Assembly: GCF_001544355.1 (NCBI RefSeq)
Contig: NZ_BCQI01000011.1
Location: 1-64,000, forward strand
Length of the DNA: 64,000 bases
Source of the DNA: Alicyclobacillus acidiphilus NBRC 100859
GTDB taxonomy: Bacteria; Bacillota; Bacilli; Alicyclobacillales; Alicyclobacillaceae
Direction of reading: 5' to 3'
Shown piece after piece: positions 19,207 through 61,779 of this stretch (positions are counted from its first letter, which is position 1; the number at the start of each line of letters is the position of its first letter). The notes below the pieces were generated by a model, which did not search any database, was not told where the DNA came from, and saw only the letters and a program-made list of their open reading frames with translations. The translations under genes were made by a program, and so were the position numbers.

Positions 19207-20403
19207 ATGTTGTTGAGGCAGAAATCGTGGTACTTGGTGTTGGTGTTGTTTGTCGTTTCGACCAGTCTGCGGCCAGCCATCACGTCGATTGGCCCGTTGA
19301 TGACGCAGATACAGCAACATTTGCAGATGAACGCCCTCACGGCGAGCTTGCTGACTTCGATCCCGGTCTTTTGCATGGGAGTCTTCGCGCCTTTGACAAG
19401 TTCCGTCGGACTGCGTTTCGGGATCAATCGCGCCATCCTGTACTGTGTGATTTTGATTGGCTTGGCCACGGGTGCTCGCGTCTTCACGGACGCGTCCGTC
19501 GCGCTGCTTGTGACCGCGTTTGCCGCCGGCGTCGGCATCGCTGTGATCGGGCCCTTGCTGTCCGGGTTTATCAAAGAGCACTTCCCTGACCAAGCGCCCA
19601 CGATGATCGGAATCTACTCTCTTGGTATCGGCGTTGGCGCGACCATCAGCGCCGGCTTGTCGATCCCGATTTCGACCGCCCTCTCTTCCTGGAATGGGGC
19701 TTTGGCGGTCTGGGCCATCCTCTCGCTCATCGGCCTCTTCATGTGGCTGCCTGTGTTGACGCCTCGACCGGATCGACCGGACGTTCTTCGCAATGGAGTC
19801 AGGCGACGCGGCCTCCCGTGGGGAGAAGGCCGGGCATGGCTCTTGCTGGTGGCATTCGGGTTGCAGTCTGGCGTTTATTACTCTGTAACGACGTGGCTGG
19901 CTCCGCAAGCGGAGGAACTTGGCTACACGGCTGCGACAGCCGGGATGGTCTTGACGACCTTTTCGTTGATTCAAATGGTGTCGAGTCTCATCATCCCGAT
20001 TTTCATCAATCGTTCTCGCTCACGTACACCGTGGCTGGTCCTCTCCTGTGTCGCCACCGTGATTGGCCTGTCGGTGTGCGGCTTTTGGAATGGACCGGCT
20101 GGTCCCTGGGTCGCCGACGTATTTTTGGGCGTTGGCCTTGGCGGACTGTTCCCGATTTTGCTCATTCTGCCGCTTGACGAAACTTCAAACGGCGAGGATG
20201 CAAGTCGGTGGACCGCGATGATGCAGTGCGGCGGATACATTATATCTGGCGTCGTGCCGATGCTCGCTGGCGCCATCAAAGACGTGTACGGCCAGTATCG
20301 ATTCTCATTCGAAGCGCTGGACATCCTTGCTCTCGCTTTGCTCGTCACGTCGTTCTTTTTGGCACCGGGCCGCGCTCGGGGAACTCGTTCAGGTTCGCGC
20401 TGA
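19207..20403 (+). CDS. MFS transporter, CynX/NimT-like
   Basis: A 12-helix major facilitator of about 398 residues. The early segment with TSLRPAITSIGPLM and the SGLRFG-like loop between helices 2 and 3 match the CynX/NimT branch (cyanate or 2-nitroimidazole transport and related anions). The substrate here is unknown. It inserts between secG and rnr, which in many Bacilli are closer together. The start could be ATG 19207 or TTG 19213; neither has a strong ribosome site at ideal spacing. Confidence 0.75.
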   Translation: MLLRQKSWYLVLVLFVVSTSLRPAITSIGPLMTQIQQHLQMNALTASLLTSIPVFCMGVFAPLTSSVGLRFGINRAILYCVILIGLATGARVFTDASVALLVTAFAAGVGIAVIGPLLSGFIKEHFPDQAPTMIGIYSLGIGVGATISAGLSIPISTALSSWNGALAVWAILSLIGLFMWLPVLTPRPDRPDVLRNGVRRRGLPWGEGRAWLLLVAFGLQSGVYYSVTTWLAPQAEELGYTAATAGMVLTTFSLIQMVSSLIIPIFINRSRSRTPWLVLSCVATVIGLSVCGFWNGPAGPWVADVFLGVGLGGLFPILLILPLDETSNGEDASRWTAMMQCGGYIISGVVPMLAGAIKDVYGQYRFSFEALDILALALLVTSFFLAPGRARGTRSGSR

Positions 20404-20489
20404 AAAAGTTTCCACCACAAAGAGTGGCGATCTCACCCAATTGTGTCCATACTAGTACGAGACAAGATGGGGCATGGAGTGATACCACA

Positions 20490-23400
20490 TTGGATAGACA
20501 AGAACTGCTCGAGTATATGAAGAGCGATATTTACAAGCCGTTGACCGCACAAGAGTTGTGCGACGTCTTCGACATCGCGAAAGCCGCGGATTTCCGGGAC
20601 TTTATCAAGATGTTGAACGAGCTGGAAGACCAAGGCGACATCATGCGGACAAAGAACAACCGGTATGCCTTGCCGGAGCAAATGAATCTCGTCCTCGGCA
20701 AGCTTCAGATGAAAGCCCGCGGCTTTGGCTTCGTGCTGCCTGAAAAGAGCGGCGAACCCGACGTCTACATCCCAGCAACCGAAATGAACGGGGCGATGAG
20801 CGGAGACAAGGTGCTGGCGAAGGTCGTTGAGACGAAGACGAAGGGCGGCCAGCATCGCGAAGGCGTGATCGTGAAAGTGGTCGAGCGGGCCAACGAGCGC
20901 CTGGTCGGCAAGATCACCATCTATCCGCAACACGCGTTCGTGCACCCGATGGACAAACGGCTGTCGGAGGACATCTTCATTCCGAAAGAGGCAATTGGCG
21001 ACGCGCATGACGGCTATGTGGTCGTGGTCGAACTGACTTCATTCCCATCCGCAACGCACGGACCCGTCGGGAAAGTGGTGGAGGTGCTCGGGCACCCGGA
21101 CGAACCCGGCGTCGATATCCTCGCCGTCATTCGCAAGCACGGTCTGCCTGAGTCCTTCCCCGAGGCCGTGCTGCGCGCCGCGGAGGCGATTCCGCTTGAG
21201 ATCGATCCCGACGAGATCCAACATCGCCGCGATCTGCGCTCCGAGACCATCGTGACCATCGACGGCGACGACGCCAAGGACCTCGACGACGCGGTACACG
21301 TGAAGGAACTGCAGAACGGCAACTATGAACTCGGCGTGCATATCGCGGATGTTGGCTACTACGTGAAGGAAAACAGCGTGATCGACAAGGAGGCGTTCCG
21401 GCGCGGGACCAGCGTGTACTTGGTGGATCGCGTCATTCCCATGCTGCCGCAACGCCTGTCCAACAACATTTGTTCACTCAATCCACAGGTGGATCGGCTG
21501 ACGATGTCGTGTGTGATGGAGATCGACGCGAACGGGGGCATCGTCAGTCACGACATCTTCCCGAGCATCATCAAAACGGCGGCTCGCATGACGTACAACA
21601 ACGTCCGCAAGATTCTCGTCGAACGCGACGAAGCGCTCATCGAGGAGTATGCCCCGCTGGTGCCAATGTTTCAGCGGATGGAGACGTTGGCGCTGATCCT
21701 GCGCGAAAAGCGGATGCGGCGCGGCGCAGTCGACTTCGACTTCGACGAAATCTACGTCAAGGTGAACGATCTCGGCGAGCCGGTGGAAATCATCCCGCGC
21801 CAGCGGTCGATCGCCGAACGGTTGATTGAGGAGTTCATGCTCGCCGCAAACGAAACGGTGGCCGAACACTTCCATTGGCTCGGCGTTCCGTTTGTGTATC
21901 GTATCCACGAAGAGCCGGACGCGGACAAGATGATCGATCTCAACGCGTTTCTCCACAACTTCGGCTTCCATCTGAAAGGCGCAGGCGGCAGCAAGGTCCA
22001 TCCGCGCGCACTCCAGGAAGTGCTGGCGAAAGTGCAAGGAACGCGCGAAGCGCGAATGATTTCCACGGTCATGCTCCGATCCATGCAACAAGCGAAATAC
22101 CGACCGGAATGCACGGGCCACTTTGGGCTGGCCGCGGAATACTACACGCACTTCACGTCGCCCATTCGGCGCTATCCAGACCTGACGATCCACCGCATCA
22201 TGCGGGAGGTGCTACTCGGGGGACTGACGCCGGAACGCGAAGCGAAGCTGCGGGAATTCGTCGAAGAAGCGAGCCGCCAATCGAGCGAGCGGGAACGCGT
22301 TGCCCAGGACGCCGAACGGGAAGTGGATCAACTGAAAATGGTGGAATATATGCAATCCCACATCGACGAAGAGTTCGACGGCATCATCACGAGCGCGACC
22401 CAATTCGGCCTCTTCGTGCAGCTCGACAACGGTGTGGAGGGACTCATCCACATCAGCGCGCTGGATGACGATTATTACGTGTTGAATGAACGCCAGATGG
22501 CGCTTATCGGCGAACGCAACCGACGGGTGTTCCGCATCGGCGATCCCGTCCGAATTTACGTCGCCCGCGCCAGCAAGGAAGATTTGCGGATCGATTTTGG
22601 ACTCGTCGAACATCGTCGCGAAGCGACTTTCGTCGGCGGTGAGGGGAGTGAGGCCATCGTGTATGATGAAGATTTGTCGCCCAAGGAGCGCACGCAAAGC
22701 ATCCGTCGACGGGAAGCGTCCTCGTCCGATGCGCCGCGCCGAGGCGCGGGTCAAAGTGGCAGCGGGCACACTGGGCGCGTGCGCCGGGATCGAGCGGCCG
22801 GACGCAGCGTCGAAGGTGGATTCAGCCGCGATGGACGCCGACGAGACGCTTTGGTCCTGCACGATCACGAAGATCCGGCCGTCGACGCCCGCCACCCCGA
22901 GTTTGCGGCGGGGCAGGGATTGGCAGAAGACATGCCGTACGACGAGTGGGATGCGGAGTTCCCTGATCCGCGCGAATTGCGCGAATCCCGCGAAGCCGAG
23001 CAAGGCTCCGGCCGCCGCGGTCGCAGCGATTCAGAGAGTGATCGATTTGAGCGGCGGGATCGCGAATCCAAAGGCGGCAGCCGTCGCAACGCTGGCCGCG
23101 GCAGCAGCGCGGGTCGCGGGGGTAACGCTGGCCGCGGCAGTGCAGGTCGCGGGAGCGGTGCGGATCGCGGAGGACGTGCAGGTCGTGGTGGCAGCGCCGA
23201 TCGCGGCAGTAGGGCAGGCGCCGGCGGCAATCCGCGTCGGACCTCGGATGAACGTCCGGCGTCAGGCGATCGCTCACGCAGCGAAGGCCGCACAGGCGGC
23301 TATCGCACCTGGGGAGGTCGAGAGGACGCACGCGGCGAGGGGGGAGGCGGTCGCCGCCGCGATCGCTCAGCGCCCACACGGGGTCGCGGCGATGACTACG

Positions 23401-23540
23401 TGTATGCCGACGGACGGAGATCGTCTGCCAAGAAGCACAAAGGCGGCGCTAAGGCCGGCGCAAAGTTTGCCGCGAAACACGGGGGAAGCAAATCCGTGGC
23501 CGGGTCCAAAGGCGCCAGCAGCCGCAAGCGCGGCAGATAA
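20490..23540 (+). CDS. rnr: Ribonuclease R with a long Arg/Gly-rich tail
   Basis: A 3'-to-5' exoribonuclease of about 1016 residues that degrades structured RNA and works with SmpB-tmRNA on stalled mRNAs. Domains in order: winged-helix N-terminus, two cold-shock domains (about 70-220), the RNB catalytic domain (about 240-570) with DGDDAKDLDDAV carrying the metal aspartates, and an S1 domain (about 625-705). About 290 further residues follow, with a basic, RG/GRG-repeat tail from about residue 840, ending KGASSRKRGR. TTG start is preceded by GGAGTG. It sits upstream of smpB and ssrA, forming a complete trans-translation module. Confidence 0.92.
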   Translation: MDRQELLEYMKSDIYKPLTAQELCDVFDIAKAADFRDFIKMLNELEDQGDIMRTKNNRYALPEQMNLVLGKLQMKARGFGFVLPEKSGEPDVYIPATEMNGAMSGDKVLAKVVETKTKGGQHREGVIVKVVERANERLVGKITIYPQHAFVHPMDKRLSEDIFIPKEAIGDAHDGYVVVVELTSFPSATHGPVGKVVEVLGHPDEPGVDILAVIRKHGLPESFPEAVLRAAEAIPLEIDPDEIQHRRDLRSETIVTIDGDDAKDLDDAVHVKELQNGNYELGVHIADVGYYVKENSVIDKEAFRRGTSVYLVDRVIPMLPQRLSNNICSLNPQVDRLTMSCVMEIDANGGIVSHDIFPSIIKTAARMTYNNVRKILVERDEALIEEYAPLVPMFQRMETLALILREKRMRRGAVDFDFDEIYVKVNDLGEPVEIIPRQRSIAERLIEEFMLAANETVAEHFHWLGVPFVYRIHEEPDADKMIDLNAFLHNFGFHLKGAGGSKVHPRALQEVLAKVQGTREARMISTVMLRSMQQAKYRPECTGHFGLAAEYYTHFTSPIRRYPDLTIHRIMREVLLGGLTPEREAKLREFVEEASRQSSERERVAQDAEREVDQLKMVEYMQSHIDEEFDGIITSATQFGLFVQLDNGVEGLIHISALDDDYYVLNERQMALIGERNRRVFRIGDPVRIYVARASKEDLRIDFGLVEHRREATFVGGEGSEAIVYDEDLSPKERTQSIRRREASSSDAPRRGAGQSGSGHTGRVRRDRAAGRSVEGGFSRDGRRRDALVLHDHEDPAVDARHPEFAAGQGLAEDMPYDEWDAEFPDPRELRESREAEQGSGRRGRSDSESDRFERRDRESKGGSRRNAGRGSSAGRGGNAGRGSAGRGSGADRGGRAGRGGSADRGSRAGAGGNPRRTSDERPASGDRSRSEGRTGGYRTWGGREDARGEGGGGRRRDRSAPTRGRGDDYVYADGRRSSAKKHKGGAKAGAKFAAKHGGSKSVAGSKGASSRKRGR

Positions 23541-23635
23541 GCACACCTTGTTGAGTACACTTGTTCGGACGGCCATAACGTGGTAAGATCATTTGCACGC
23601 TGCAATCAATCTTGATGCATGTTGGAGTGACACGT

Positions 23636-24106
23636 ATGGCCAAGTCTGGCGAGGGGAAAATTCTCGCGCAAAACCGAAAGGCGTACCACGATTATTTTAT
23701 CGAGGAGACGTTTGAGGCTGGTCTCGTGCTCACGGGAACAGAAATCAAGTCGATGCGCAAGGGTTCGGTCAGCCTTCGCGACGCATATGCCCGCGTCGAG
23801 AAAGGCGAAGTGTTTTTGCACAATATGCATGTGGCCCCGTATGAACAGGGCAACCGTTTCAATCACGATCCGCTCCGGACCCGCAAATGTCTCCTGCACC
23901 GCAAAGAGATCAATTACCTGTTTGGTGCGGTTCGCGAGCAAGGGTATACGCTGGTACCGACGAAAGTGTACTTGAAGCACGGCTTTGCAAAGGTCGAGCT
24001 GAGTCTCGCGAAGGGCAAGAAGCTGCACGACAAGCGCGAGTCGTTGAAGAAGCGCGATGCCAATCGGGAGATAGAGCGCGCGCTCCGAGATCGACAGAGA
24101 GCGTAA
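23636..24106 (+). CDS. smpB: SsrA-binding protein SmpB
   Basis: A 156-residue RNA-binding protein that brings tmRNA to stalled ribosomes. Typical motifs are [29 protein letters not shown], the [14 protein letters not shown] loop, and the basic C-terminal tail ([17 protein letters not shown]) that enters the mRNA channel. ATG follows TTGGAGTG. The start was set at 23636, not at the longer frame, because of this ribosome site and normal SmpB length. The tmRNA gene follows on the same strand. Confidence 0.94.
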
Positions 24107-24374: not shown

Positions 24375-24746
24375 GGGGGCGTTTTGGATTCGACGGGGGT
24401 TGTTCGAGCATGTACGGCGGGCCGTGGGGCTGCGCACACGTTAATCACGCGGACTTTCTTTAACTGGCAAAGCTAAGAGCTTTACCTCAAACAGCAATCT
24501 CGCTCTCGCTGCCTAATTAGCAACGAGACCGTTACATCGTGTGTTGTCTGTGCACACCCTGTAACGTCAACTTAGCAGACTAGCCGATGACCTTGTTCGC
24601 GGGCCACCGACGAAACTTTAGCGAACTCGCCTGTGCACCAGCGTGATCGTCCGCGGGTGGCAGGGACTTCAGTAGACGGTCTACGCCCGTAGATGTGCAT
24701 GTAGCGAGATCTTCGGACGCGGGTTCGATTCCCGTCGCCTCCACCA
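24375..24746 (+). ncRNA. ssrA: Transfer-messenger RNA (tmRNA)
   Basis: The 5' end GGGGGCG pairs over 7 bp with CGCCTCC (24736-24742), followed by ACCA, forming the tRNA-like acceptor stem of a one-piece tmRNA of 372 nt. TTCGATTCC near the 3' end is the T-loop. Near the 5' end TGGATTCGACGGGGG is the standard tmRNA sequence. The tag reading frame lies in the middle. tmRNA releases stalled ribosomes and marks the product for proteolysis with SmpB. The end of the gene lies 27 bp from the presumed transposon border, so it is the likely attachment site. Confidence 0.95.
24466..24516 (+). other. tmRNA proteolysis-tag reading frame
   Basis: The resume codon GGC starts the open frame, which reads (A)GKAKSFTSNSNLALAA and stops at TAA, with the first alanine supplied by the charged tmRNA itself. 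The GK...SF...ALAA layout matches the Bacilli type of tag (B. subtilis begins AGKTNSF and ends ALAA). Confidence 0.88.
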
Positions 24747-24750
24747 TGTA

Positions 24751-24774
24751 AAACCACGACCAAAACTGTGGTTT
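24751..24774 (+). terminator. Hairpin just after tmRNA
   Basis: AAACCAC pairs with GTGGTTT (24768-24774) around a 10-nt loop. No T-run follows directly, so it is either a weak tmRNA terminator or one whose T-run was displaced by the inserted element, whose first base may be T 24774. Confidence 0.4.
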
Positions 24775-24776
24775 GT

Positions 24777-24850
24777 GATTTAAAGCATAAGTTGTCCAAG
24801 ATGGACAGCTTATGCTTTAAATTAGTATGGGACAATTTATGGTTTAAATT
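24777..24850. repeat. Three 21-bp repeats, candidate TnsB-binding sites at the element end
   Basis: Copies are at 24803-24823 (GGACAGCTTATGCTTTAAATT), 24830-24850 (same but AAT at 6-8 and G at 13), and 24777-24797 in inverted orientation. The consensus is GGACARYTTATGSTTTAAAT. The two direct copies start 27 bp apart. Repeats of about 20 bp near a terminus are the hallmark of TnsB-bound Tn7-type ends. The first copy being inverted, so that copies 1 and 2 form a palindrome, is unlike textbook Tn7 where sites in an end run the same way. Confidence 0.6.
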
Positions 24851-24929
24851 GAGTCGTGGATGATAAACAGCGACCCGGGACAGTGGCTGTCTGCGGCAAG
24901 GGACGTTTTTGTTCTTTATAATAATGAAA

Positions 24930-26363
24930 TCAATTTCTTTCTCTAAAGTCTTTTATTGCTTTCTCTACAGCTTTTCGATACAGATGTTGTCGCACATTAA
25001 CCTGAGAAGAAATTAGGTTCTGTAATCTCACTTGGCTCGGATACATCCCTCTTTCCAGTAAATAAATAGAAATGTCATAGACTTCTTTGTACATCTTCAG
25101 TTGGAACTCTTGTTCGTATTCTTGCCTTCTTTGTTTTATAAGTTCTACTAAATCAGGATAGTGTCGTTTAAACGAAGACCAACTGTAATTGCCTAACTCT
25201 TGAGCAACTCGTTTAACCGAAAGTTCTTCCGGCCTCAACTCCACTATCAACGATAGTGCGCGTTTTCTTATTTGTGCCAACGTATTTGCTTTCTTTTGCG
25301 CCCTCATTCGTGATAACTCATTGTACTCTTTCGGAAAGTGAGCTTTTAGGACATTACAGCTCGTATTCAATTCCCTTGCTAATTCCACCACTGATGGTGG
25401 ATTAGGGTTTTTAAGAACAATGGAAAGTGCTTCTTTATATCTTTCAAGCGTATGACTGTCCAGATGATTTCTTGGTGGTCGAATCCCTTTTATAGGGAGT
25501 TCCCGTCTATTCATCTCAAATATACGGATAGACTGTATAAACGGCAAACGTGTTTCATAGGTCATTTGAATTAACGTGTCTAATTCAATGCGCCTTGCAA
25601 CGCACATTCGTGTAGAAATTGTACGATATAAACTGGACTCTGTTGAAAGTTTGCTACGAACATATGTAAAGAATCTCATGAAAGTTTCGGGTTTCAACTC
25701 AGTAATCCATGTTTCCGTCAATGCGGTTATCATACTGCATATCGTTTCTTCGGTCCAAGCTGCATATGGATCGCTAAGTTCCTTTTCTAAGTTCATCGTT
25801 TCCTGACCCAGCCATGCACCGCATTTGGCACAATGTCCAACTCGATAAGAGGTGCTGTTCATGAAGTCAGTCTGTGTATAAGAACAATTGGGACACGAAT
25901 TCACGAGGTTTGTGTGATGAACTGGGCAAGTTTGCAAAGCAGCAACGAACCATAAAAGAGGCTCATAGATTGTTTGTCCGGTATTCGCCCATTCCTGTAG
26001 ACAGTACGGGCACCATTTTCGAACACTCCCAAGTTTGTAAGAGGACACGAGATGCTTCCATGGGAGAAATGTCATGAAACGAAGGTTTGTGTGATATGTT
26101 GCTTTTTCTAACAATTCGACGTAACGTTCTGTCTTATTACTACACGCATTGAATTGTGAAAAAGTCACGGGTCGACCTTGATCAAATAGTGTCCGGTATA
26201 GCAAAGGTAGAGTTAAGCCGTGTTCCTCAGCCAACCGACAAAGGTAACTACAAAGACTTTCTACGTATATTGTCCCAATACCAATCGGTTCAAGCCTAAA
26301 TAACAAGCTTCGTTTCGGGGATTTCAGTTCCGGCTTTGGTTCCTCTATCCATGTGAAGTCCAT
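24930..26363 (-). CDS. TniQ/TnsD family target-selector protein A
   Basis: A 477-residue protein (ATG 26363, GGAG 9 nt upstream). The N-terminal TniQ region shows SLCSYLCRLAEEHGL, FLPWKHL, then zinc-finger pairs CPYC...CPVH at about 120-160 and CPNC...CAKC at about 165-195. The C-terminal half is basic and helical with two helix-turn-helix-like units (PPSVVELARELNTS and SVKRVAQELGNYS), as in TnsD proteins that bind a chromosomal attachment site. It is the last gene of the minus-strand transposition operon and nearest to tmRNA. It is a good candidate for the tmRNA-recognising factor (inference). Confidence 0.85.
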   Translation of the reverse strand: MDFTWIEEPKPELKSPKRSLLFRLEPIGIGTIYVESLCSYLCRLAEEHGLTLPLLYRTLFDQGRPVTFSQFNACSNKTERYVELLEKATYHTNLRFMTFLPWKHLVSSYKLGSVRKWCPYCLQEWANTGQTIYEPLLWFVAALQTCPVHHTNLVNSCPNCSYTQTDFMNSTSYRVGHCAKCGAWLGQETMNLEKELSDPYAAWTEETICSMITALTETWITELKPETFMRFFTYVRSKLSTESSLYRTISTRMCVARRIELDTLIQMTYETRLPFIQSIRIFEMNRRELPIKGIRPPRNHLDSHTLERYKEALSIVLKNPNPPSVVELARELNTSCNVLKAHFPKEYNELSRMRAQKKANTLAQIRKRALSLIVELRPEELSVKRVAQELGNYSWSSFKRHYPDLVELIKQRRQEYEQEFQLKMYKEVYDISIYLLERGMYPSQVRLQNLISSQVNVRQHLYRKAVEKAIKDFRERN

Positions 26364-26392
26364 TAAATTCAACTCCGATCATCTCGGCATAT

Positions 26393-27529
26393 TCAGACTT
26401 CTGTTCCCGTCTTGTCGCGTGTCGGCCTACGCTGTCCGGGTCTGTGTCTCTTATGTTCCTTGGTTTCTGTGAAAACACTTTCTCGAGTTGACTCAAGCCC
26501 AACAGAGAACGAACACGCTTGGCGTAACAGTTCTTCGGATTCTTTTCTTCTGTAAAATGATGCCTCACCCGCCTGTGCTTCGGCCAACAACCGCATACAT
26601 GTGTCTGCATCGTGAGCCGTTGCCTGGAGGTGCTCCAATCGCATCGTATCATCACCTTGGTGAAGTGCCAGTGAAAGTGCGCGTTCCAGCCAATTTTTGA
26701 GAATGCCGACACAGCCAATGGAGTGTGCATAGAGCTCCTCCACGTGACTGAGAAGGTCCGGCATTTCCTGGAAAGGAAGACGACGTTGGAACTCAAGAAC
26801 CACATTTGTAAATATCTCAATATCACGACGATTCGTGTTCATGTAGCGAAAGAAATCATACCTGAACGAACGTCGTCCAAGTTGTCCACTTAACTCGTTT
26901 ACGGGCAAAAGCTCGTAGGTGCCGACCAAGATAATCGTTACACCAGTAAGGTTGAATATGGTTTTTAAATTGTTCATCTGGTCATTCATGCTCTTCCCGC
27001 TCGCGACTTTACCAAGGTGTTGTGCTTCGTCGATGATCATCACGCGTGTTTTTCGATGGTGAAGTGCCTTCAACATATCACGCCTCAGTTCGTCTAATTT
27101 CAGACGCTGAACCCACGAACGATTCCGATCATCCATCAGGACGGGATTCAGGATTCGAAGGACTTCAGTGTACAAATCACTCCAGCTAAAGTTTCCTTTT
27201 CCATGAGGAGCTTTGGCCTCAATCCGAACAATAGGAATAAAGCCTGCATCGTTCTCCATCTCGGCATAGAAATGTTGAACAAGCTTCTTTTCAAAGTCTT
27301 CGATGAGCGTCGTTTTGCCAACTCCACTTGGACCCATGACAAATAACAGTTCCGCGGAACCAGGGTCGATCGTTACGCGGAAGAGCGTTTCTTCAAGATG
27401 ATGTAAATTGGGATGCCGTAACTTCTGTTCATGAAAAAACCTGAGCCTTTGGTGAACCGACTCTTGTAGGAGTTCTTTCGGGAACTTGGCCGTTAACCGA
27501 TCAGCGGGAATATTCAATTTCATGATCAT
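26393..27529 (-). CDS. tnsC: TnsC-like AAA+ transposition regulator
   Basis: A 378-residue ATPase that links the target selector to the transposase and gives target immunity in Tn7 systems. The Walker A motif is GPSGVGKT at about residue 67 and Walker B is VMIIDEAQHL at about 162; sensor-like IILVGTYELL follows. The length and the N-terminal region fit the TnsC/TniB group. Its ATG overlaps the tnsAB stop (ATGA), so translation is coupled. The C-terminal tail is Lys/Arg-rich (KEHKRHRPGQRR), possibly the contact to TnsAB or DNA. Confidence 0.9.
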   Translation of the reverse strand: MIMKLNIPADRLTAKFPKELLQESVHQRLRFFHEQKLRHPNLHHLEETLFRVTIDPGSAELLFVMGPSGVGKTTLIEDFEKKLVQHFYAEMENDAGFIPIVRIEAKAPHGKGNFSWSDLYTEVLRILNPVLMDDRNRSWVQRLKLDELRRDMLKALHHRKTRVMIIDEAQHLGKVASGKSMNDQMNNLKTIFNLTGVTIILVGTYELLPVNELSGQLGRRSFRYDFFRYMNTNRRDIEIFTNVVLEFQRRLPFQEMPDLLSHVEELYAHSIGCVGILKNWLERALSLALHQGDDTMRLEHLQATAHDADTCMRLLAEAQAGEASFYRRKESEELLRQACSFSVGLESTRESVFTETKEHKRHRPGQRRPTRDKTGTEV

Positions 27530-30174
27530 AAATCCTCCATCTCATCAAAATTTTCAATCACAAATTCATGCTGACTCTGGTCTTCTGGGTGTAAGGTATC
27601 TGGAAAACCTGCAACCAACGGCGAATCAGATATACGGTTATCAAAGGTTGGCTGTCCCTTTCTAAGTCTCTCTTCATCTCTCGCCCGTTGAAGCTCCAAC
27701 TCTGTATCCTTAGCTTGAAGGATGGCGTCAACCAACTGTCGTTGGGTCGGGGAGCCCCGATGTGAAAGTCGTTTGTGTAGTCGGGCCGCTAGGCGTACCT
27801 CCTTCTCGGTACGATTACGGAACACCGAATACCGGTAAGAACAGCACTCCAACCAACGTCCGTCCAGATATGCGAAGGCGATTCCCATGTTGTCCGGATC
27901 GTACCGAACCGGAACCCGTTCGTTTTCCCATCGGGCGCTTCGGAATTCTTCATTCCAGTAATAAATTCCGTTAACTTTGATGCCTCTGCCCGGTTCAATT
28001 TTGGATGTGCCTTTGGGCGTTGAAGGACACGTCATGATGACAAAGTCTCGATTGTACGGCACAATCCTGGCAGGTCGTTCTCCGGTGATCGCAATGCCCA
28101 CTTCGTACGCTTCACGCGGGCTTTGTCCGAGAGCGGGATGACGCTTCTGGTCATATGCAGTGAAAAAGTAACTCTCAAGAGCATCGTTCAGTGCTTCCAA
28201 GGTCCAGACTGCCAAACGCTCGGGATTTACTTCATCCGTGATTTGACGAACATTTTTTAGTAGTTGGGTATTGCCCTGCAGTTGATAAATGAACTCAGCA
28301 TGGGTACTTCCAAAGAGACGTTCGATGACGTTGCCATTCCGCGGTTTGCCCTTACGGCTAGTCTTCTCACACTGAAACCGCGCCAAAAGCTGTTCAAAAT
28401 ATACACTTTGAAATTCCTTTCCGCCGTCCACCACGACTTGATCCGGCATACGGTGATACCTGCGTACAATGTCCCGGACCACACGCATCAGAGACCGATA
28501 GCTCGGTTCGTCAAAATCTACGTCAAAACCCAGGATGCGCCTGGAGTACGCATCGATCGCCAACGTTAACCATGGTCTACCGAGAACCTGTCCCCGGCGT
28601 GAAACAAGGAGAATGTCAAGCTGGGTGTGATCAATATGGCAAATTTGAAAGGGCCTATCCCCATGCCTTGGCGTGTCGCGGGCAAGATGCTCTTCGAATA
28701 CCTCATACCGCATAGCAATTTTCTCCCCTTTGCGTTTTCGCTCCTGTTGATGCTTGGGTCGACGTTTCAGAAAGCGCACGAAAGTGACGTAACTTGGAGC
28801 AGGAATTCCTGCCTCCGTACACCGCGCTTGAAGCATTCGGTAACTCGCGAACATCGAGGGGTTGGTGCTTACTTCGTATGTTTCTTCCACCGTGGATTGC
28901 ATGAGTGATAGCAGTTCCTCGGGAATTTTCCTCGTTCGGTTGCCTTTCCGGGCATGTCCGGGGATCAGTCCGTCAAAACCGTACCCGGTTACCTCTTCCG
29001 CTAACCGAAAGGCCCTTTCCCAACGTCGAATGGTCCGGAGAGAAACGTTAGGATCCGGATTGTTATGCGTTTTCCAGTATTGCTTAAGGATTTCGTAACG
29101 CCTCAATGCTTCTCGAAGCGCGTCCGGATGTGTTCCTGAGAGTATGGAAGAGTAGTGATTCACGGGTGCATCTTGTAGAGGCACCCCGGTAATCGATCCC
29201 CTCGCGACCAGTTTCTCGAAGACGTCGATTTTCAGGATGCGAAAGTCGTCACTCGCCTCTCGCTGTAACGTGACTTCCGTCTGTCCAACATGGAATATGG
29301 TCCAAACGATACCATCCCAGGATATGGCCGAACCCGCTGTCAGAGAAATTTGCAGGGGGACACGCGGTGGTGTCGACTCCGAGGTGAGAATGGTCAATGC
29401 TTCGGCCACGTCTCTCGAGGGGTAGAGGTGCACATATTCCGCATCAGCCAAGCATTCTGCGTACCAATCCATGTAAATGTCATTTTGCGCAATCAGAGTA
29501 TAAACGGCATCGGAAGGGATGTCCGATGATGTCGCAAGAAGCTCATACAGCGTCGTTCCGGGATTCTGATACAAATGAGATAGAACCCGATCTTTCACGG
29601 ATCCGGGAACGGTATAAGGGTATTGTAGATAATGGGACAGAAATTCCAGGTTTCGCAAGTATATCGGGTGGAGCTCGGATTTCACGCGTAATCGATAATA
29701 AAGCCCATAGGATTCAGCATAAGCTTGGCCCGGCGGGCATAGCCACTTCCGACCCTGTCGGCAGTAACGGTTTGGCTCTTTCTCCGCTAACTTTTCAAGC
29801 CGTTCGTCCGGCTTCCATTCTTCCCAGCCAGCCTCGTGTTTACGAATCACGAAGAAATCCGGGGTATGCCATATCCCAGCTTTAGTGCCATTGGCTCGAA
29901 CATAGTTCAGTTTGATTTGGCATGGCTGGTCGTAATACTCCAGTACGTCAGGATCATGTTCGTAAATCAAGATTGCACTGCGTTCGACGGAATGGCTCTC
30001 GGCCTGGATGGTAAGCCCCATCTTTTTGCTGCTATACCGGCCAGGAGTATTATAGGGACCGTCATGAATGATACGAACTGGATTTGATGTGCGAATTTGT
30101 TCGATCAGCCGAATAGCTTGTGGTGTCAAGTTGAGCGACGTTGCCCAGTTACGAAATTCCGTTTCCGACAACAC
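27526..30174 (-). CDS. tnsAB: TnsA-TnsB fusion transposase
   Basis: An 882-residue protein. Residues about 60-180 look like TnsA endonuclease: an early Glu (ESHSVE), HDPDVLEYYDQP, TPDFFV with Asp106, and EWKP with Lys121, which fit the E...D...ExK nuclease core. From about residue 195 on comes a TnsB/integrase: helix-turn-helix regions, then an rve core with Asp515 (HIDHT), Asp583 (VVDGGKEF) and Glu618 (GNVIERLFG), giving D-35-E spacing, and a C-terminal beta/Mu-type part with an acidic tail. One polypeptide could cut both 5' and 3' ends for clean cut-and-paste. GTG 30174 was chosen because GGAGG lies 8 nt upstream; GTG 30183 overlaps it. Confidence 0.88.
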   Translation of the reverse strand: MLSETEFRNWATSLNLTPQAIRLIEQIRTSNPVRIIHDGPYNTPGRYSSKKMGLTIQAESHSVERSAILIYEHDPDVLEYYDQPCQIKLNYVRANGTKAGIWHTPDFFVIRKHEAGWEEWKPDERLEKLAEKEPNRYCRQGRKWLCPPGQAYAESYGLYYRLRVKSELHPIYLRNLEFLSHYLQYPYTVPGSVKDRVLSHLYQNPGTTLYELLATSSDIPSDAVYTLIAQNDIYMDWYAECLADAEYVHLYPSRDVAEALTILTSESTPPRVPLQISLTAGSAISWDGIVWTIFHVGQTEVTLQREASDDFRILKIDVFEKLVARGSITGVPLQDAPVNHYSSILSGTHPDALREALRRYEILKQYWKTHNNPDPNVSLRTIRRWERAFRLAEEVTGYGFDGLIPGHARKGNRTRKIPEELLSLMQSTVEETYEVSTNPSMFASYRMLQARCTEAGIPAPSYVTFVRFLKRRPKHQQERKRKGEKIAMRYEVFEEHLARDTPRHGDRPFQICHIDHTQLDILLVSRRGQVLGRPWLTLAIDAYSRRILGFDVDFDEPSYRSLMRVVRDIVRRYHRMPDQVVVDGGKEFQSVYFEQLLARFQCEKTSRKGKPRNGNVIERLFGSTHAEFIYQLQGNTQLLKNVRQITDEVNPERLAVWTLEALNDALESYFFTAYDQKRHPALGQSPREAYEVGIAITGERPARIVPYNRDFVIMTCPSTPKGTSKIEPGRGIKVNGIYYWNEEFRSARWENERVPVRYDPDNMGIAFAYLDGRWLECCSYRYSVFRNRTEKEVRLAARLHKRLSHRGSPTQRQLVDAILQAKDTELELQRARDEERLRKGQPTFDNRISDSPLVAGFPDTLHPEDQSQHEFVIENFDEMEDL

Positions 30175-30221
30175 GTTGGACACCTCCGGGCATGTCCGAC
30201 GACGCCATTCATGGCGTCAGG

Positions 30222-31646
30222 TTATCTTGTGAACGAGGATACCAGTACGCGCGTAATGTCGCCGTTTTGATCTGCACTTGGACCTATTGCGTTGTCGTTA
30301 CGAAGACAAGTTTCTTTTGCTTGTCTCCATATGTCTCGAACAGAAGTCTCTCGTAACAGACCAGGCTTCCCCAGAGTCCGCTCAACTGCCCGCGCGCTTG
30401 GGTATATGCCTGTGGCATAAAGGTCGGCCACACAGTCAGTGATGACCTCCTTCAAGTGCTTCAGTCGGTGATCACACGCCTTGCGACGCGCTTCTTCATA
30501 CCGGGCGCTTAGAGCCCGCGACAGTTCCGGATGCCACACTCGCAATTGTCGTCGGTTCACGCCCAGTTCCCGAGCGACCTGCGCCAGAGAAGGTGGGGGG
30601 ATTCGTGTCAAAGCTTCTTCCAAAGCTCGTGCTGTTTCGTTCTGATTGGTGTGATTGGTGTTACTTCGCTTTCTGAATGGGCGGATAAGCCTAATATTTT
30701 TCTTCACAGATAAATCGGATCGCACATGCGGTATTTCATCGGTTAGAATCTCCGCAATCGATTTGCCGAGCCGAAGGCTGATTTGCACTAACGTTGGGAG
30801 TGGGATGCGCGATTTCCCCCAATACCAACCCCACAGCGTGTTTTTTGGTACGCCAATTTCTCGTGCGAGCTTAGCGCAATTGCCGTCGGTCAACACCAAG
30901 AGTCGGCGTAAAATATCCGAAGTGGATTGTGCACCCGTAACATTTGGATTGTTTACTGCAAATCGAATCATCTCATCAACGCACGTCGCAATGTCTGGTT
31001 GAATGTTTTCATAAAAGTTTGGTGACGACATCGCATTCGTCTTGGAGACTTCCGTCGATCCCAGCCATTGGCCACACCTGCAAAATCCCGGTTGTACATA
31101 ACGCTCCCAGTGGTAAAGTTGTCTGCCACAACACACACACGTATCGCGTAGTTGTATGCGGTGACGAGGACATATTGTAACGACTTGAACAGACCACAAC
31201 AGTGGTTCATGCGTAATCTGTCCGGTTGCTCGCCATGCGTCATAGCACATCGGGCACCATGCGCGTTTCGTTCGTAACAAGTTTCGAACCGACAAAACGT
31301 GGCGCCACGGATAGAAGGTCAGTTGTTCCAGACCGACGACGTGAGTGAGCCTCGACAATACTTGAATTGCCTCGCGGGTGCTCTGGCCGACTCCATTCAT
31401 GGCTACGCTATGTGCCAAGTAGCGCGTTCCGCCGTTGGCCGTGATGCGATTCAAGTATTTCTTGTCTACAGCAGGTGCCCATACAGAAGCAAGAAATATG
31501 GCCATGTTCATGCCGTGCTCGTATACGAGCCGGTTGACATAGCTGGTAAGGCTCTCCGGTCGTGGGCTTGTTATGGGCTTCAGAGCGTACAGCATCGATC
31601 GTGTTGGGATCGGTAGTGATTCCCAAGTATCGGAATCAAATTGCAT
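30222..31646 (-). CDS. TniQ/TnsD family target-selector protein B with XRE-like helix-turn-helix
   Basis: A 474-residue protein (from the ATG at 31646, with a perfect TATAAT 55 nt upstream). The N-terminal TniQ region has ESLTSYVNRLVYEHGM, FYPWRHVL, then zinc motifs CPMC...CPRH and CVCC...CRCG. Unlike protein A it carries a clear XRE-type helix-turn-helix at about 250-305 (NCAKLAREIGVPKNTLWGW), then a second HTH-like unit PPSLAQVARELGVNRRQL. It is the first gene of the operon and lies 47 bp upstream of tnsAB. Two different selectors in one element suggest two targeting routes. Confidence 0.82.
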   Translation of the reverse strand: MQFDSDTWESLPIPTRSMLYALKPITSPRPESLTSYVNRLVYEHGMNMAIFLASVWAPAVDKKYLNRITANGGTRYLAHSVAMNGVGQSTREAIQVLSRLTHVVGLEQLTFYPWRHVLSVRNLLRTKRAWCPMCYDAWRATGQITHEPLLWSVQVVTICPRHRIQLRDTCVCCGRQLYHWERYVQPGFCRCGQWLGSTEVSKTNAMSSPNFYENIQPDIATCVDEMIRFAVNNPNVTGAQSTSDILRRLLVLTDGNCAKLAREIGVPKNTLWGWYWGKSRIPLPTLVQISLRLGKSIAEILTDEIPHVRSDLSVKKNIRLIRPFRKRSNTNHTNQNETARALEEALTRIPPPSLAQVARELGVNRRQLRVWHPELSRALSARYEEARRKACDHRLKHLKEVITDCVADLYATGIYPSARAVERTLGKPGLLRETSVRDIWRQAKETCLRNDNAIGPSADQNGDITRVLVSSFTR

Positions 31647-31700
31647 TGTTCCAACACCTGTCCTTTCCACTCCATCTATCGGGCATGACTCTTTGAGGCA

Positions 31701-31706
31701 ATTATA
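31701..31706 (-). promoter_or_regulatory. -10 box upstream of the transposition operon
   Basis: A perfect TATAAT reads on the minus strand 55 nt before the proposed start of TniQ protein B. No good -35 box stands 16-18 bp upstream, so the promoter may need an activator or be weak. Confidence 0.4.
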
Positions 31707-31814
31707 GAACCTCATGCTTTTCTGTACCGGAGGAATGGAAGAGTAAAAAATACGTTGTTTTGCAACTTGTAAAATCAATAGGATGTGGTAAAATATTCAG
31801 ACAACATTAAACAG

Positions 31815-37817: not shown

Positions 37818-38507
37818 ATGAAGGAGGAAGCCTTATTTGACGAGACAGCGAGCACGTACGATGATTTTTGCAGCACTCCGCTCGGTCACTTCGTGGATGT
37901 GGTCGAACATGAAATTATCGCTGCGACGGCGAGGCCGAAGCAAGGGGAAAAGGCCATTGACCTTGGTTGCGGGACAGGTTCCTACACGTATTGGTTGAGC
38001 GACTTGGGGCTTTCGGTCGTGGGTGTAGATGTTTCACGAAAGATGTTGGGGGTTGCACGCAGGAAACAGTGTAATGTCGTCACCTTTGTGCAAGCCGACC
38101 TGCTTGGCCTTCCATTCGACAACAACACGTTTGACTTGGCGATCTGTAACATCGTACTGGAGTTCATTCAAGATCCTGCCGCTGCACTGCGTGAGGGGTT
38201 CCGTGTCTTAAAACCTGGCGGCCGCTTGGTTGTCGGTTGCATCAATCGATTTGGGGCCTGGGCAAAAAAGTACACGGAGCGTGGTCAACAAGATCCTGCA
38301 AGTGTCTATCGGTACGCCCGATTCTTTTCGGTTGAAGAGTTGTCAGGTACGTTGCCCTTTCATCCTTCCGAGGTTCGTTTCGGATTGTATGTTGGACCGG
38401 ATGAGTTTCAGGTATTTGACACCGCCATGCGATTGGAACGGGAGCGTGATGCCCAACACCAGGGCGCAGGTTATTTTGTTGTTCGATGGGATAAAACCCA
38501 ACCGTGA
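37818..38507 (+). CDS. Class I SAM-dependent methyltransferase
   Basis: A 229-residue methyltransferase: SAM loop AIDLGCGTGSYTY, acidic end of strand 2 VVGVDVS, post-I LPFDNNTFDLAICNIVLEFI, and VLKPGGRLVVG. The C-terminal part (PASVYRYARFFSVEEL) would form a substrate cap. It looks like the UbiE/Coq5 type or a small-molecule enzyme. Its place after merA may be chance; a role in methylating a metalloid or detoxified product is conceivable but not shown. ATG 37818 has GGGGGG 9 nt upstream. Confidence 0.8.
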   Translation: MKEEALFDETASTYDDFCSTPLGHFVDVVEHEIIAATARPKQGEKAIDLGCGTGSYTYWLSDLGLSVVGVDVSRKMLGVARRKQCNVVTFVQADLLGLPFDNNTFDLAICNIVLEFIQDPAAALREGFRVLKPGGRLVVGCINRFGAWAKKYTERGQQDPASVYRYARFFSVEELSGTLPFHPSEVRFGLYVGPDEFQVFDTAMRLERERDAQHQGAGYFVVRWDKTQP

Positions 38508-38509
38508 TG

Positions 38510-39882
38510 AGTGTCCCTTTCCGATATGATTGGCCATCATACTCCTTATCGTTCCGGACGTTTTACATCCATCTTTCACCAGTGGTCGTGCCAAGACCCT
38601 GCCATTGAAGCTCGTGATTTCAAACGAATGCCCATGCAGATGAATGGGATGCTCCATTATGCTCATGTTCTGCATTTCTATGCGCACCCGGTCGCCTTTG
38701 CCTACACGCAGAGGGGCAGTGTTTGGATAAGGCACCGTTTATGGTCCAGCTTGGCCCCATCATCATCCCGTCGCTGAGCGTCAAAACAAAGTGTTGATCG
38801 ACCTTTGCCAAAGAACCGGTTTCGGTGGAGGAACTGGTGTAGGACCATGAGGGTGCCGACGAAGGCATTGCACTCACTTGTCCGTCCGTATAAAAGGGAA
38901 TTCGCATGACTTCCTGGCCGCCGATTTTGGAGCGCAGATACCACTTTCCTGTCTGTGGTGGCGTGCCCACAATGTCGTATCGCTCCGCCGGGGCTATGTA
39001 CAAGTCACTCACGGGTATGGGGGTGTCCAGCGGATTTCCGTCCGTATGGGTCACCAGGAAGCTGCCCTTGTCCATGGTCAACCAGTAAGACTCGGAGGCG
39101 CTGGCGTTGACGAGCCGAAGGCGAAGTTTTTCACCTGCGTGTACGGCGACGGAGGCCAAGGCCGCCGGGATGTCCCCGTTCATCAAATGGATCAATCCCA
39201 GGCTGGAGGAGGTCATGGTCCCGCCCCCCATCATCATTTGAACCCATGCCACCGCTCGCTTGCATGCCGTAATCGAATCCGGGGTTGGATTGGTATCCCC
39301 ACGTGGACAGGATGAGCGTCATGTCACGGTCTGCAGGGTAAGGCTCCGTACCGTTCACAGGTTCAATGATCAAGGCGCCAAACAAGCCGTTCGGGATTTG
39401 ATCCATTTCAAACACATGCGAGTGATACCAGCGAGTGCCGGAGGGACCGGCGACAAACTCGAACGTAAACGACTGTCCGGGCATGATGGGGTCCTGGGAG
39501 ATACCCGGTACGCCATCCATCGGAGAAGGGACATTCACCCCATGCCAGTGCAGCGTGGTGGGTTGGTCGAGATGATGGTTCACCATTACCCGACTTTGTC
39601 GCCTACTCGGACACGGATCTCGGGGCCGGGGAACTGGCCGTTGATGAGATATCCGCTGAACCAGCGGCTATCCCGAAGCGTCACATCTCCCCGTGACAGG
39701 TTGAGGACAAAGGATTTGACGGTCCCGTTCCACGGGATCGTGGGTCTTTGCGGCAGCACCAGAGGGGTAGGACTGCCAGGCACAAGAGAGCGAATGAACG
39801 GATAGCTGCCAAGGCCAATCAACTCCAGGCCGCCCAAGGCCATCAGAAATTCACGCCGGGTGATTCGCTTGTCGTTCACCAC
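38510..39882 (-). pseudogene. Multicopper oxidase, broken by at least three frameshifts and truncated
   Basis: Minus-strand pieces in sequence: a Tat-like signal (ITRREFLMALGGLE) to RVRVGDKVG; NHHLDQPTTLHWHG and GTRWYHSHV; then GGGTMTSSSLGLIHL through KVDQHFVLTLSDGMMM; then NTAPLRVGKGDRVRI and HPIHLHGHSF. Joining requires single-base changes near 39588, in the G6 tract near 39225 and near 38733. The final HCHxxxH copper-binding strand is missing after LVKDG. Three of four copper motifs remain. The gene should be inactive. It is convergent with the methyltransferase. Confidence 0.85.
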
Positions 39883-58530: not shown

Positions 58531-58875
58531 ACGGCGAGGGAAGTTTGTCTCGTTCAAGTCATTATCATCATGGTGCGAGTAGGTCAAGAGCGTCAGAAAA
58601 GGCGATAGGCAGTTCAATCGGTTCTATTCTGATTGCGATCGTCGCTTCGTCCCACCACTGGGTACATATGTTGCTGATTGCTCTGGGGCTTGGTGCGGTC
58701 GGAGCGGGGCTATTCACGATGCCGATACCCATTCGAATCGGGCTCTTGGTTGTGTCGGTCGTCGTATCGATAGGAATGCTCTTTGTCGCTTGGCGGAAGA
58801 GGACGAACAACAAAGCTGTGGCTTGGGTGTATTTTATCTCGTCCGTCGTTTCTCTGGTGATTATCGCGACATCCG

Positions 58876-58881
58876 TTCCAA
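58876..58881. repeat. Target-site duplication TTCCAA, left copy
   Basis: TTCCAA flanks the IS on its left; the right copy is 61693-61698. A 6-bp duplication is within the IS21 range (4-8 bp). Confidence 0.85.
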
Positions 58882-59028
58882 TGTGTTTGTCAATCGAAAA
58901 GTTGACCAGGTTGCTAATCGAAAAGTTGACCACCTCAGGTAAAGAAATCTGGCTGTGGGGCTCATCAGTTGGAAGGAACCCTCTTGCACAGCCAGCATTG
59001 AGACAATGAAGTTATCTCCAAAGTATCT

Positions 59029-59334
59029 TCAGAGCAGGTCTAGTAAGCGAAGCTCGTCCAAAATCCGTTCCACCGTCTCCTCTGCCATCTTGGCGGAATA
59101 GCGCCGGTGTGGCTCCAGCACATAGCTCCACTGTCTGTCCTTTCTACTGCCAACCAAGCGTACAATCATCCCACCGTTTACTGTTTCAAGAAGTCTCCCA
59201 CTCAGAAACCGGCCGTCAACGAGGATTTGGACTGCCATGCCTGTATTGGTGGGAATGGATTGGTAGCCCATATCGAAGCACCAGCTCTCTGTATCAAGCG
59301 GATCGTATCGCAGGATTCCTTCAATGGTCTTCAT
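59029..59334 (-). CDS. IS21 accessory ORF, DUF5348-like
   Basis: A 101-residue protein near the left end of the IS21 element, downstream of istB. It has an RYDPLDTESWCFDMG-like start and a beta-rich middle, as in the small DUF5348-type proteins sometimes carried by IS21 members. Function unknown; may be a passenger regulator. Confidence 0.55.
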   Translation of the reverse strand: MKTIEGILRYDPLDTESWCFDMGYQSIPTNTGMAVQILVDGRFLSGRLLETVNGGMIVRLVGSRKDRQWSYVLEPHRRYSAKMAEETVERILDELRLLDLL

Positions 59335-59348
59335 AAGGTCTCCTCCAT

Positions 59349-60110
59349 TCAGGTATGTTGCAAACGTTTCTGGCTTTCACGGAATCGGTAGGATTCACCC
59401 TCAAAGAGAAGAATGTGTGAGTGGTGGGTGAGTCGGTCAAGCAGCGCTGTCGTCAATGTGGCGTCATGAAAAACCTCTGTCCACTGTGCAAACTCCAAAT
59501 TCGTCGTCACCAGGAGACTGCCTTTTTCGTATCGGTCGGCGCAGAACTGGAACAGAAGCGGTCCGCCCTGGGCAAGGGATACGTATCCGAGTTCATCCAG
59601 ACATACAAGGTCGTACTTGTCCCATGACCGCAAGTATCGAGGCAGGCGGTACTCGGATTCGGCCTGCAGCAGTTCCTGTACGAGTTGCATCACAGTGACG
59701 AAGCGAACCCTGTATCCAGCGGCAATGGCGGACAGCCCAATTGCAATCATCACATGGGTCTTACCGGTCCCGCTGGCGCCCATGCAAATCACGTTCTCTT
59801 TGCTGCGAATGAACTCGCCTTCTGCTAGATGCAGAACCCGTTGCTTTGGTAATGTAGGGATGGCGGTGAAGTCGAACTCCTCGAGTGTCTTGTATGCCGG
59901 GAACCGGGCCTGGCTTGTATACGTTTGTAGACGACTCTGTTTGCGGGACTCCATTTCCTCCGCCAAACATGCGGCCAAATACTGTACCATGGACTGCCCA
60001 TTTGTTGCAGCATCCCGAGCCAACGACTCATACGCCCTGCGTAGCCCAGGCATCTTGAGTTCCTTGCAGTAGATGTCAACCATAGCGGCATGCACGTCGG
60101 CTGTCATCAA
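59349..60110 (-). CDS. istB: IS21 helper ATPase IstB
   Basis: 253 residues. Walker A GASGTGKTHVMIAIG, Walker B LVCLDELGYVSL, DnaA/DnaC-like AAA+ fold. It helps IstA place the element in target DNA. Its start overlaps the istA stop by 4 nt. Confidence 0.95.
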   Translation of the reverse strand: MMTADVHAAMVDIYCKELKMPGLRRAYESLARDAATNGQSMVQYLAACLAEEMESRKQSRLQTYTSQARFPAYKTLEEFDFTAIPTLPKQRVLHLAEGEFIRSKENVICMGASGTGKTHVMIAIGLSAIAAGYRVRFVTVMQLVQELLQAESEYRLPRYLRSWDKYDLVCLDELGYVSLAQGGPLLFQFCADRYEKGSLLVTTNLEFAQWTEVFHDATLTTALLDRLTHHSHILLFEGESYRFRESQKRLQHT

Positions 60111-61558: not shown

Positions 61559-61692
61559 CCCGTACACATTCCTTCCCCCCTGTACCCAGAGTCTTCGGAC
61601 AACTCTAGCGTACAGGATATGGATGACGGGGTGGTCAACTTTTCAGTTATCAAGGAACCTCCACGTGGTCAACTTTTACGTTATCAAACACA

Positions 61693-61698
61693 TTCCAA
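61693..61698. repeat. Target-site duplication TTCCAA, right copy
   Basis: Identical to 58876-58881 on the other side of the IS. Confidence 0.85.
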
Positions 61699-61779
61699 CC
61701 CTGGTGCAATCCGCTGCGCCGTCCGTGCATCAGGAGCACCATCACAATGGAATGTAAACAGAAAGGAGGCTCCTTTGCC

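Follow-up and report, generated by a model that had tools for sequence, protein, structure and literature searches.

A 64,000-nucleotide stretch of DNA from Alicyclobacillus acidiphilus NBRC 100859 (contig NZ_BCQI01000011.1, positions 1 to 64,000 of the forward strand; hereafter the window) carries a Tn7-like transposon of the TnsAB-fusion branch that, judging from sequence comparison, very probably homes to a position 27–32 bp behind the 3′ end of ssrA, the transfer-messenger RNA (tmRNA) gene. The direct results are an intact ssrA, both element ends, a target-site duplication (TSD), an empty site, recurrence elsewhere and a constant spacing. A first-pass annotation made from the letters alone had proposed a tmRNA-homing Tn7-like transposon, and the paired ends, the TSD and the repeated insertions at this spacing bear that proposal out.

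ARAGORN found a single RNA gene in the window, an intact tmRNA gene at 24375–24746 (+) with the tag GKAKSFTSNSNLALAA, and Rfam RF00023 agreed (186.8 bits). The 32-nt 3′ end of this attachment gene has its sole match in the window genome there (≤3 mismatches). Directly behind ssrA lies a full transposition set (TnsAB fusion, TnsC and two TniQ), as the first-pass annotation had it and as Pfam domains, ARAGORN and Rfam confirmed. The operon occupies the minus strand and reads toward ssrA in the order tniQ-a, tnsAB, tnsC, tniQ-b. Both tniQ-a (30222–31778, −; 518 aa; Pfam TniQ, E 1e-17, plus helix-turn-helix matches) and tniQ-b (24930–26372, −; 480 aa; Pfam TniQ, E 7.3e-17) encode TnsD-like proteins; tnsC (26393–27529, −) encodes a TniB-like AAA+ regulator of 378 aa (Pfam AAA_22/TniB), and tnsAB (27526–30183, −) an 885-aa fusion of endonuclease and DDE transposase (Pfam Tn7_TnsA-like_N, rve and Mu-transpos_C). 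A TnsA endonuclease joined to a DDE TnsB, an AAA+ TnsC and TniQ/TnsD proteins in one operon mark the system as Tn7-like. Residues D518, D586 and E621 of the transposase part and D109, E122 and K124 of the TnsA part, which we take to be catalytic, are unchanged in all seven TnsAB sequences aligned. Among solved chains, the fused TnsAB is nearest to the tRNA-homing branch of the clustered regularly interspaced short palindromic repeats (CRISPR)-associated transposons (CASTs) I-B2 and I-D, with 9bw1_M as best match (E 1.3e-217) and the next chain at E 7.9e-22.

The left terminus, TGT at 24774, lies exactly 27 nt past the CCA of ssrA, the distance first annotated. The left end (24774–24850, +) consists of TGT and three transposase-site-like repeats in forward, reverse and reverse orientation; copies of the 19-nt repeat start at 24779 (+), 24803 (−) and 24830 (−) with ≤2 mismatches, an arrangement seen in 0 of 100 shuffles. 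Repeats 1 and 2 form a palindrome whose 21-nt arms are 95% complementary, and 24747–24850, taken as RNA, folds far better than shuffles (z −7.6). An exact-pattern search of C11, the 92,460-bp contig carrying the window, found no right end. A loosened repeat pattern run on 15 genomes of the genus returned a matching right end, absent from the first-pass annotation, at 4248 on C88 (locus L094), a second contig of the same genome, with the sequence CCGAACCA/TGTGACTTATTGCATAAATTGACC. This end has two repeats, and the element is bounded by TGT...ACA, the repeats being putative transposase sites. C88:4248 is the only place in the window genome with the two-repeat pattern (≤3 mismatches), which 3 of 41 genomes of the family contain; its reversed control occurs in none of the 41.

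The sequence TGGTT flanks the element on both sides (24769–24773, +; C88:4243–4247), and the joined flanks of C11 and C88 match the ssrA 3′ region of the element-free genome G012 at 101 of 108 positions, with no gaps. These are the 5-bp duplication and the empty site that the first-pass annotation had suggested looking for. A gene located farther along C88 has its counterpart downstream of ssrA in G012, with the order preserved (729 nt, 78.7%). The first hairpin of the ssrA terminator region (24751–24774, +) stays on the ssrA side, its last base being the first T of the element, and the second hairpin with its T-run lies past the right end on C88. The element extends beyond the coordinates of the first-pass annotation and covers at least 67.7 kb of C11 (24774–92460) and 6.2 kb of C88 (4248–10398).

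Full-length TnsAB of the window kind was found in 3 of the 41 Alicyclobacillaceae genomes, in four operons; three further genomes of the 41 matched by the transposase core only. The four full operons stand at ssrA (two), an ssrA 3′ fragment (one) and a tRNA-Ser 3′ fragment (one). The A. mengziensis S30H14 (G061) operon lies behind ssrA with the end at 29 nt; its right end is 110,946 bp away on the chromosome, and GATGG is present on both flanks. Once joined, these flanks align gap-free with G021 (174 nt, 97.7%) and with G006 (170 nt, 88.8%). A. fastidiosus DSM 17978 (G007) carries one operon behind a degenerate ssrA 3′ fragment and a second behind the 3′ half of tRNA-Ser, with 55,296 bp between ends and the TSD TTTTG. 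Behind the true ssrA of this genome stand an end built in the same way and a single TniQ gene. Neither the ssrA end (flank GAGGA) nor the fragment end (flank TGGCA) could be matched to a right end, and the right end at 4977495 has the flank CCATA. In the family, 39 ssrA places were located, and the 3′ flank was read at 30 of them; the end is present in four (window, G007, G061 and G025), and G008 is cut by the contig end.

Other features of these elements were noted in passing. A partial duplicate of the TnsA part adjoins tnsAB in A. mengziensis (L109:11826–12401), and in the A. fastidiosus tRNA-Ser element TnsC is joined in one 1299-aa protein with a long TniQ whose C-terminal part is repetitive (L065:4372–8271). 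Unpaired right ends of the same type lie on L095 (~G007:C1:4977495) and L097 (~G004:C1:4264201); the former abuts a hairpin resembling the ssrA terminator of G001.

Outside the family, we searched 398 genomes of the class, 398 of the phylum and the best 80 of 297 loci from GTDB relatives. The class-wide pattern matched 32 of 398 genomes, mostly by chance; five of the 20 loci obtained were read, and three of these were of the ssrA type (G038, at a fragment; G553; G716). Phylum-wide, 9 of 398 genomes matched and all were read, four being of the ssrA type (window, G456, G115 and G324, the last at a fragment). The TnsAB genome search gave seven genomes with TnsAB, the sites of G545, G618, G639 and G784 standing outside the comparison. 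In G115, which belongs to another class, an intact ssrA is followed by an end at 29 nt and a right end 20,260 bp away, and the TSD, GCTAC, falls within the loop of the ssrA terminator hairpin. Mesobacillus selenatarsenatis SF-1 has an intact ssrA, the end at 28 nt and the tns operon inside. In Bacillus sp. ISL-37 (G456) the end lies 32 nt behind ssrA; ATGTG flanks the element on the ssrA side and again past its far end, where the final two bases already open a further left end, so that two elements stand in tandem. A. mengziensis, G115, ISL-37 and SF-1 supply the pairing of tnsAB with ssrA in other genomes for which the first-pass annotation had advised a search. Additionally, G553 has an end at 28 nt, with an operon 18.7 kb further in, and in G038 and G324 the end follows an ssrA fragment.

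Overall, ends of the same design lie behind ssrA in nine genomes (eight with an intact gene, and ISL-37 with an intron-split one) and behind ssrA or tRNA 3′ fragments at four further places. The distance from CCA to TGT is 27–32 nt in 13 of 13 tabulated left ends, which had been selected for lying ≤60 nt from an ssrA or tRNA 3′ end. The ISL-37 ssrA itself (L311:10011–10608, −; Rfam tmRNA, 158.7 bits) has its 3′ part split in the T-loop by ~250 nt; this insert matches a group I intron at 37 bits, below the gathering score of 50. A protein-only query of genome contigs and an alignment query of viral contigs found no relative. Plasmid records with relatives numbered 45, and the 20 listed, mostly cyanobacterial, show 39.6–43.4% identity.

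Several observations weigh against the homing reading. The window element has its ends on separate contigs, and its continuity is not proven; we take C11 and C88 as one continuous element because of the ends and the duplication, not because of a closed assembly. In G025 the end is accompanied by no tns gene over the 18.6 kb read, and G716 has an end at 29 nt with no tns genes in ~57 kb read. The second end of G553 was not found, and its operon may belong to another element. Furthermore, the operon points away from ssrA in the Bacillaceae, G553 and G115 cases. On the protein side, TniQ-b of the window is only 27.8% identical to that of A. mengziensis, though both stand behind ssrA, and the TniQ tree shows no single ssrA clade for TniQ-b (57/81, with the tRNA-Ser case inside).

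More distant relatives attach to tRNA genes. In 10 of the 80 loci from GTDB relatives, ARAGORN placed an RNA gene downstream of tnsAB in convergent orientation. A T-arm scan of the same loci, 62 of which had at least 2.4 kb of room, gave 12 loci, 10 of them with a TGT end 37–40 nt past the T-arm; L116 and L147 did not fit. The targets were tRNA-Ala, tRNA-Val, tRNA-Gln (Acidobacteriota), an unassigned tRNA-like 3′ end and the A. mengziensis tmRNA. Cyanobacterial and acidobacterial relatives keep the same distance behind tRNA genes as the ssrA elements do behind ssrA. The left-end design of the window element recurs in relatives, and TGTGACTTnnnCATAACTTTGCCG..CGGCAAGCTTATG is common to the cyanobacterial left ends. 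Palindromic ends turned up at 15 loci in a second scan, with no RNA gene at the end of L127, L129, L151, L161, L181, L191 and L192, among others; therefore the branch uses other sites too. For the relative in G447, a left end was sought by eye and not found. The first-pass annotation had held that related tnsAB operons at unrelated loci would speak against ssrA homing. This is partly the case: distant relatives lie behind tRNA genes, and several occupy sites where no RNA gene was found. Target switching therefore occurs in the TnsAB-fusion branch, and the ssrA insertions stand regardless.

Among known systems, CAST I-B2 (PmcCAST, Tn7744) and CAST I-D (CyCAST, McCAST) likewise have a TnsAB fusion and home to tRNA genes through TnsD. 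The window element resembles them in having a full-length TnsD-matching TniQ and in inserting ~30 nt past the 3′ terminus of a tRNA-like gene, and it shares its left-end design with cyanobacterial relatives. Unlike them, it targets a tmRNA, resides in Bacillota, shows no CRISPR array in the contigs scanned and, where they have a TnsD and a small TniQ, encodes two large TniQ proteins, of 480 and 518 aa. Insertion here is 27 nt behind a tmRNA gene rather than behind a tRNA gene as in the I-B2/I-D branch, and we therefore file the element as a variant, one that homes to tmRNA within the known tRNA-homing branch. Faure 2023 describes insertion by TnsAB, TnsC and TnsD of CyCAST ~30–33 nt behind a tRNA-Leu gene. 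According to PMC11406308, the I-D and I-B2 CASTs came from the TnsAB-fusion subfamily, their TnsD uses various tRNA genes, and the branch holds further unstudied targeting systems. The words 'tmRNA' and 'ssrA' have no occurrence in the main texts of PMC10293859, PMC8649781 and PMC11406308. Among the papers listed in searches of the open literature, none was seen to report tmRNA as a site for Tn7-like elements, and one of them uses ssrA as a qPCR reference; a prior mention is possible in Hsieh and Peters 2022 and Saito 2021.

With Tn7 (TnsABCDE, attTn7 behind glmS) the element shares the TnsA, TnsB, TnsC and TnsD functions and insertion in one orientation behind a conserved gene. Tn7 makes a 5-bp target duplication, and the duplication of the window element is likewise 5 bp. 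The element differs from Tn7 in its fused TnsA–TnsB, its RNA-gene target and the gene order tniQ-tnsAB-tnsC-tniQ. No TnsE was noticed among the open reading frames (ORFs) read, for which no dedicated search was made. Tn7-like genes of Bacillus cereus stand behind glmS, not ssrA, according to PMC2359905.

Which of the two TniQ proteins would select ssrA is a separate question, and TniQ-a is the favoured candidate, probably the right one. TniQ-a aligns over its full length (residues 54–488) with the solved tRNA-Val TnsD 8v32_J (212.8 bits, E 7.6e-62) and by this match is a TnsD-type TniQ like that of the tRNA-homing branch. It groups with the TniQ-a of other Alicyclobacillus elements in the tree (98/99). 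Further pointing to TniQ-a, the sole TniQ of the complete G115 element is TniQ-a-like, split by an insertion, its first piece matching TnsD at E 5.4e-47; TniQ-b was not found in the G115 stretches read (L113/L310). Between the window and the A. mengziensis and ssrA-fragment elements, TniQ-a is 36.9–39.0% and TniQ-b 27.0–27.8% identical, all three ends lying behind ssrA sequence, so that TniQ-b is the less conserved of the two.

The same homing with TniQ-b (480 aa, adjoining the left end) in place of TniQ-a as reader of ssrA is rather unlikely in our judgement, though it has arguments of its own. Position favours it: tRNA-homing cyanobacterial relatives carry a large TnsD-like gene behind tnsC, which is the TniQ-b position, and the ssrA relic of A. 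fastidiosus retains one TniQ gene at that same position, its type being ambiguous. TniQ-b also matches 8v32_J (E 1.5e-38); this match comes mostly from the TniQ domain (112.2 bits, as against 21.7 bits for the C-terminal part), whereas that of TniQ-a spans the whole TnsD. Its structure model is weak (mean predicted local distance difference test score 63.6), and the fold match to 8v32_J gives limited support. Position alone would favour TniQ-b; G115 with TniQ-a only and the full-length TnsD match of TniQ-a shift the odds toward TniQ-a.

In relatives solved as TnsABCD and as TnsD–TnsC–att complexes, TnsD recognises att and recruits TnsABC, according to PMC12585508. By this scheme, a TnsD-like TniQ, with TniQ-a as the favoured candidate, would bind the tRNA-like 3′ end of ssrA as DNA and recruit TnsC, which would bring TnsAB bound to both element ends. 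The element would then be joined into the ssrA terminator region, palindromic left end first, with a 5-bp duplication. Movement would be by cut-and-paste, a TnsA domain being present. The other TniQ may serve a second pathway, for instance to plasmids. The RNA-coding part of ssrA stays intact and the site is therefore safe for the host. We tentatively consider, while leaning against it, a wider version in which tmRNA attachment is recurrent across Bacillota and what TnsD reads is limited to the terminator region and the final ~20 bp of the tRNA-like domain. If the ISL-37 intron preceded the elements, the T-arm would not be needed as a single DNA block, and recognition of the acceptor end by a shared reader would account for the ease with which targets switch between tRNA and tmRNA.

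Guide-RNA selection of the site, the mode of type V-K or I-F3 CAST systems, is very unlikely, even with CAST I-B2 and I-D among the relatives of the branch. No CRISPR-like array (at least three exact 23-nt repeats, 45–100 nt apart) was found in C11, C88, L109 or L117; for the window element these scans cover C11 and C88, and its middle may be missing. Ten chosen proteins of the window genome gave no Cas match among the families shown (for one protein, the best 25 of 74). In the complete G115 element, the 16 ORFs of ≥110 aa compared with PADLOC models gave matches to CAST-type TniQ, TnsC and TnsB as well as to a type I restriction system, and no Cas effector was found in these 16 (best 25 families for three restriction-system proteins). 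The single Cas3 match there is marginal (E 9.6e-4) and lies inside the restriction enzyme.

Islands that integrate at ssrA also use its 3′ end as a safe site; the Islander abstract describes their integrases as recombining within the 3′ end of the gene and restoring it, whereas the window transposase inserts 27–32 nt behind ssrA with a 5-bp duplication. That the Tn7-like genes are passengers on an island carried in by an ssrA-using tyrosine integrase is extremely unlikely. The ssrA 3′ fragments elsewhere in these genomes are of the kind that, per the same abstract, such integrases leave; the boundaries, by contrast, are TGT...ACA with 5-bp duplications, and in the window, A. mengziensis and G115 elements the 60–80 nt read beyond the right end hold no ssrA 3′ repeat, the flank on C88 reading TGGTTCGGAACCCAG... 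at this far boundary. Bearing on this, a degenerate second copy of the ssrA 3′ end and terminator lies 2.7 kb beyond the right end (L094, 1522–1594), possibly left by another integrating element. A chance landing behind ssrA by a transposon without a fixed target has a practically negligible probability: ssrA is a common integration site of other elements (PMC10121019 describes the tmRNA hotspot of E. coli as occupied by diverse elements, among them transposons), yet spacing and orientation are equal in several families while the duplications differ.

Upstream of ssrA in the window lie rnr, for RNase R (20208–23540, +), and the ssrA partner gene smpB (23612–24106, +), both named by eye from ORF translations; the two genes also precede ssrA in G012, G007 and Bacillus sp. 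ISL-37. On the other side of the operon, cargo fills the window from 31779 to 64000 and continues on L066/L067. It includes metal-resistance genes and encodes a MerA-like oxidoreductase with an HMA domain, a P-type metal ATPase with HMA domains, multicopper oxidases, a response regulator and a low-molecular-weight phosphatase family protein (arsenate-reductase-like by eye). A multicopper-oxidase-like gene lies in pieces at 38343–39586, and a similar long ORF, by eye, at L066:2111–3586. An IS21-type element (istA, istB) with inverted repeats at its sides occupies 58875–61699, inside the cargo. Within the right end on C88, a large ATPase-like protein (L094:4974–7427, −) has PADLOC matches to LmuB, mad3 and PtuA and is possibly a defence gene of the cargo.

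The paired ends, duplications and empty sites from several families are material for a direct test of homing, and an ssrA-targeting TnsD could serve as a landing device in Gram-positive laboratory strains. The comparison of tRNA and tmRNA sites offers a natural series for mapping TnsD recognition. With these insertions, tmRNA, a conserved bacterial gene, joins the safe sites of Tn7-like elements.

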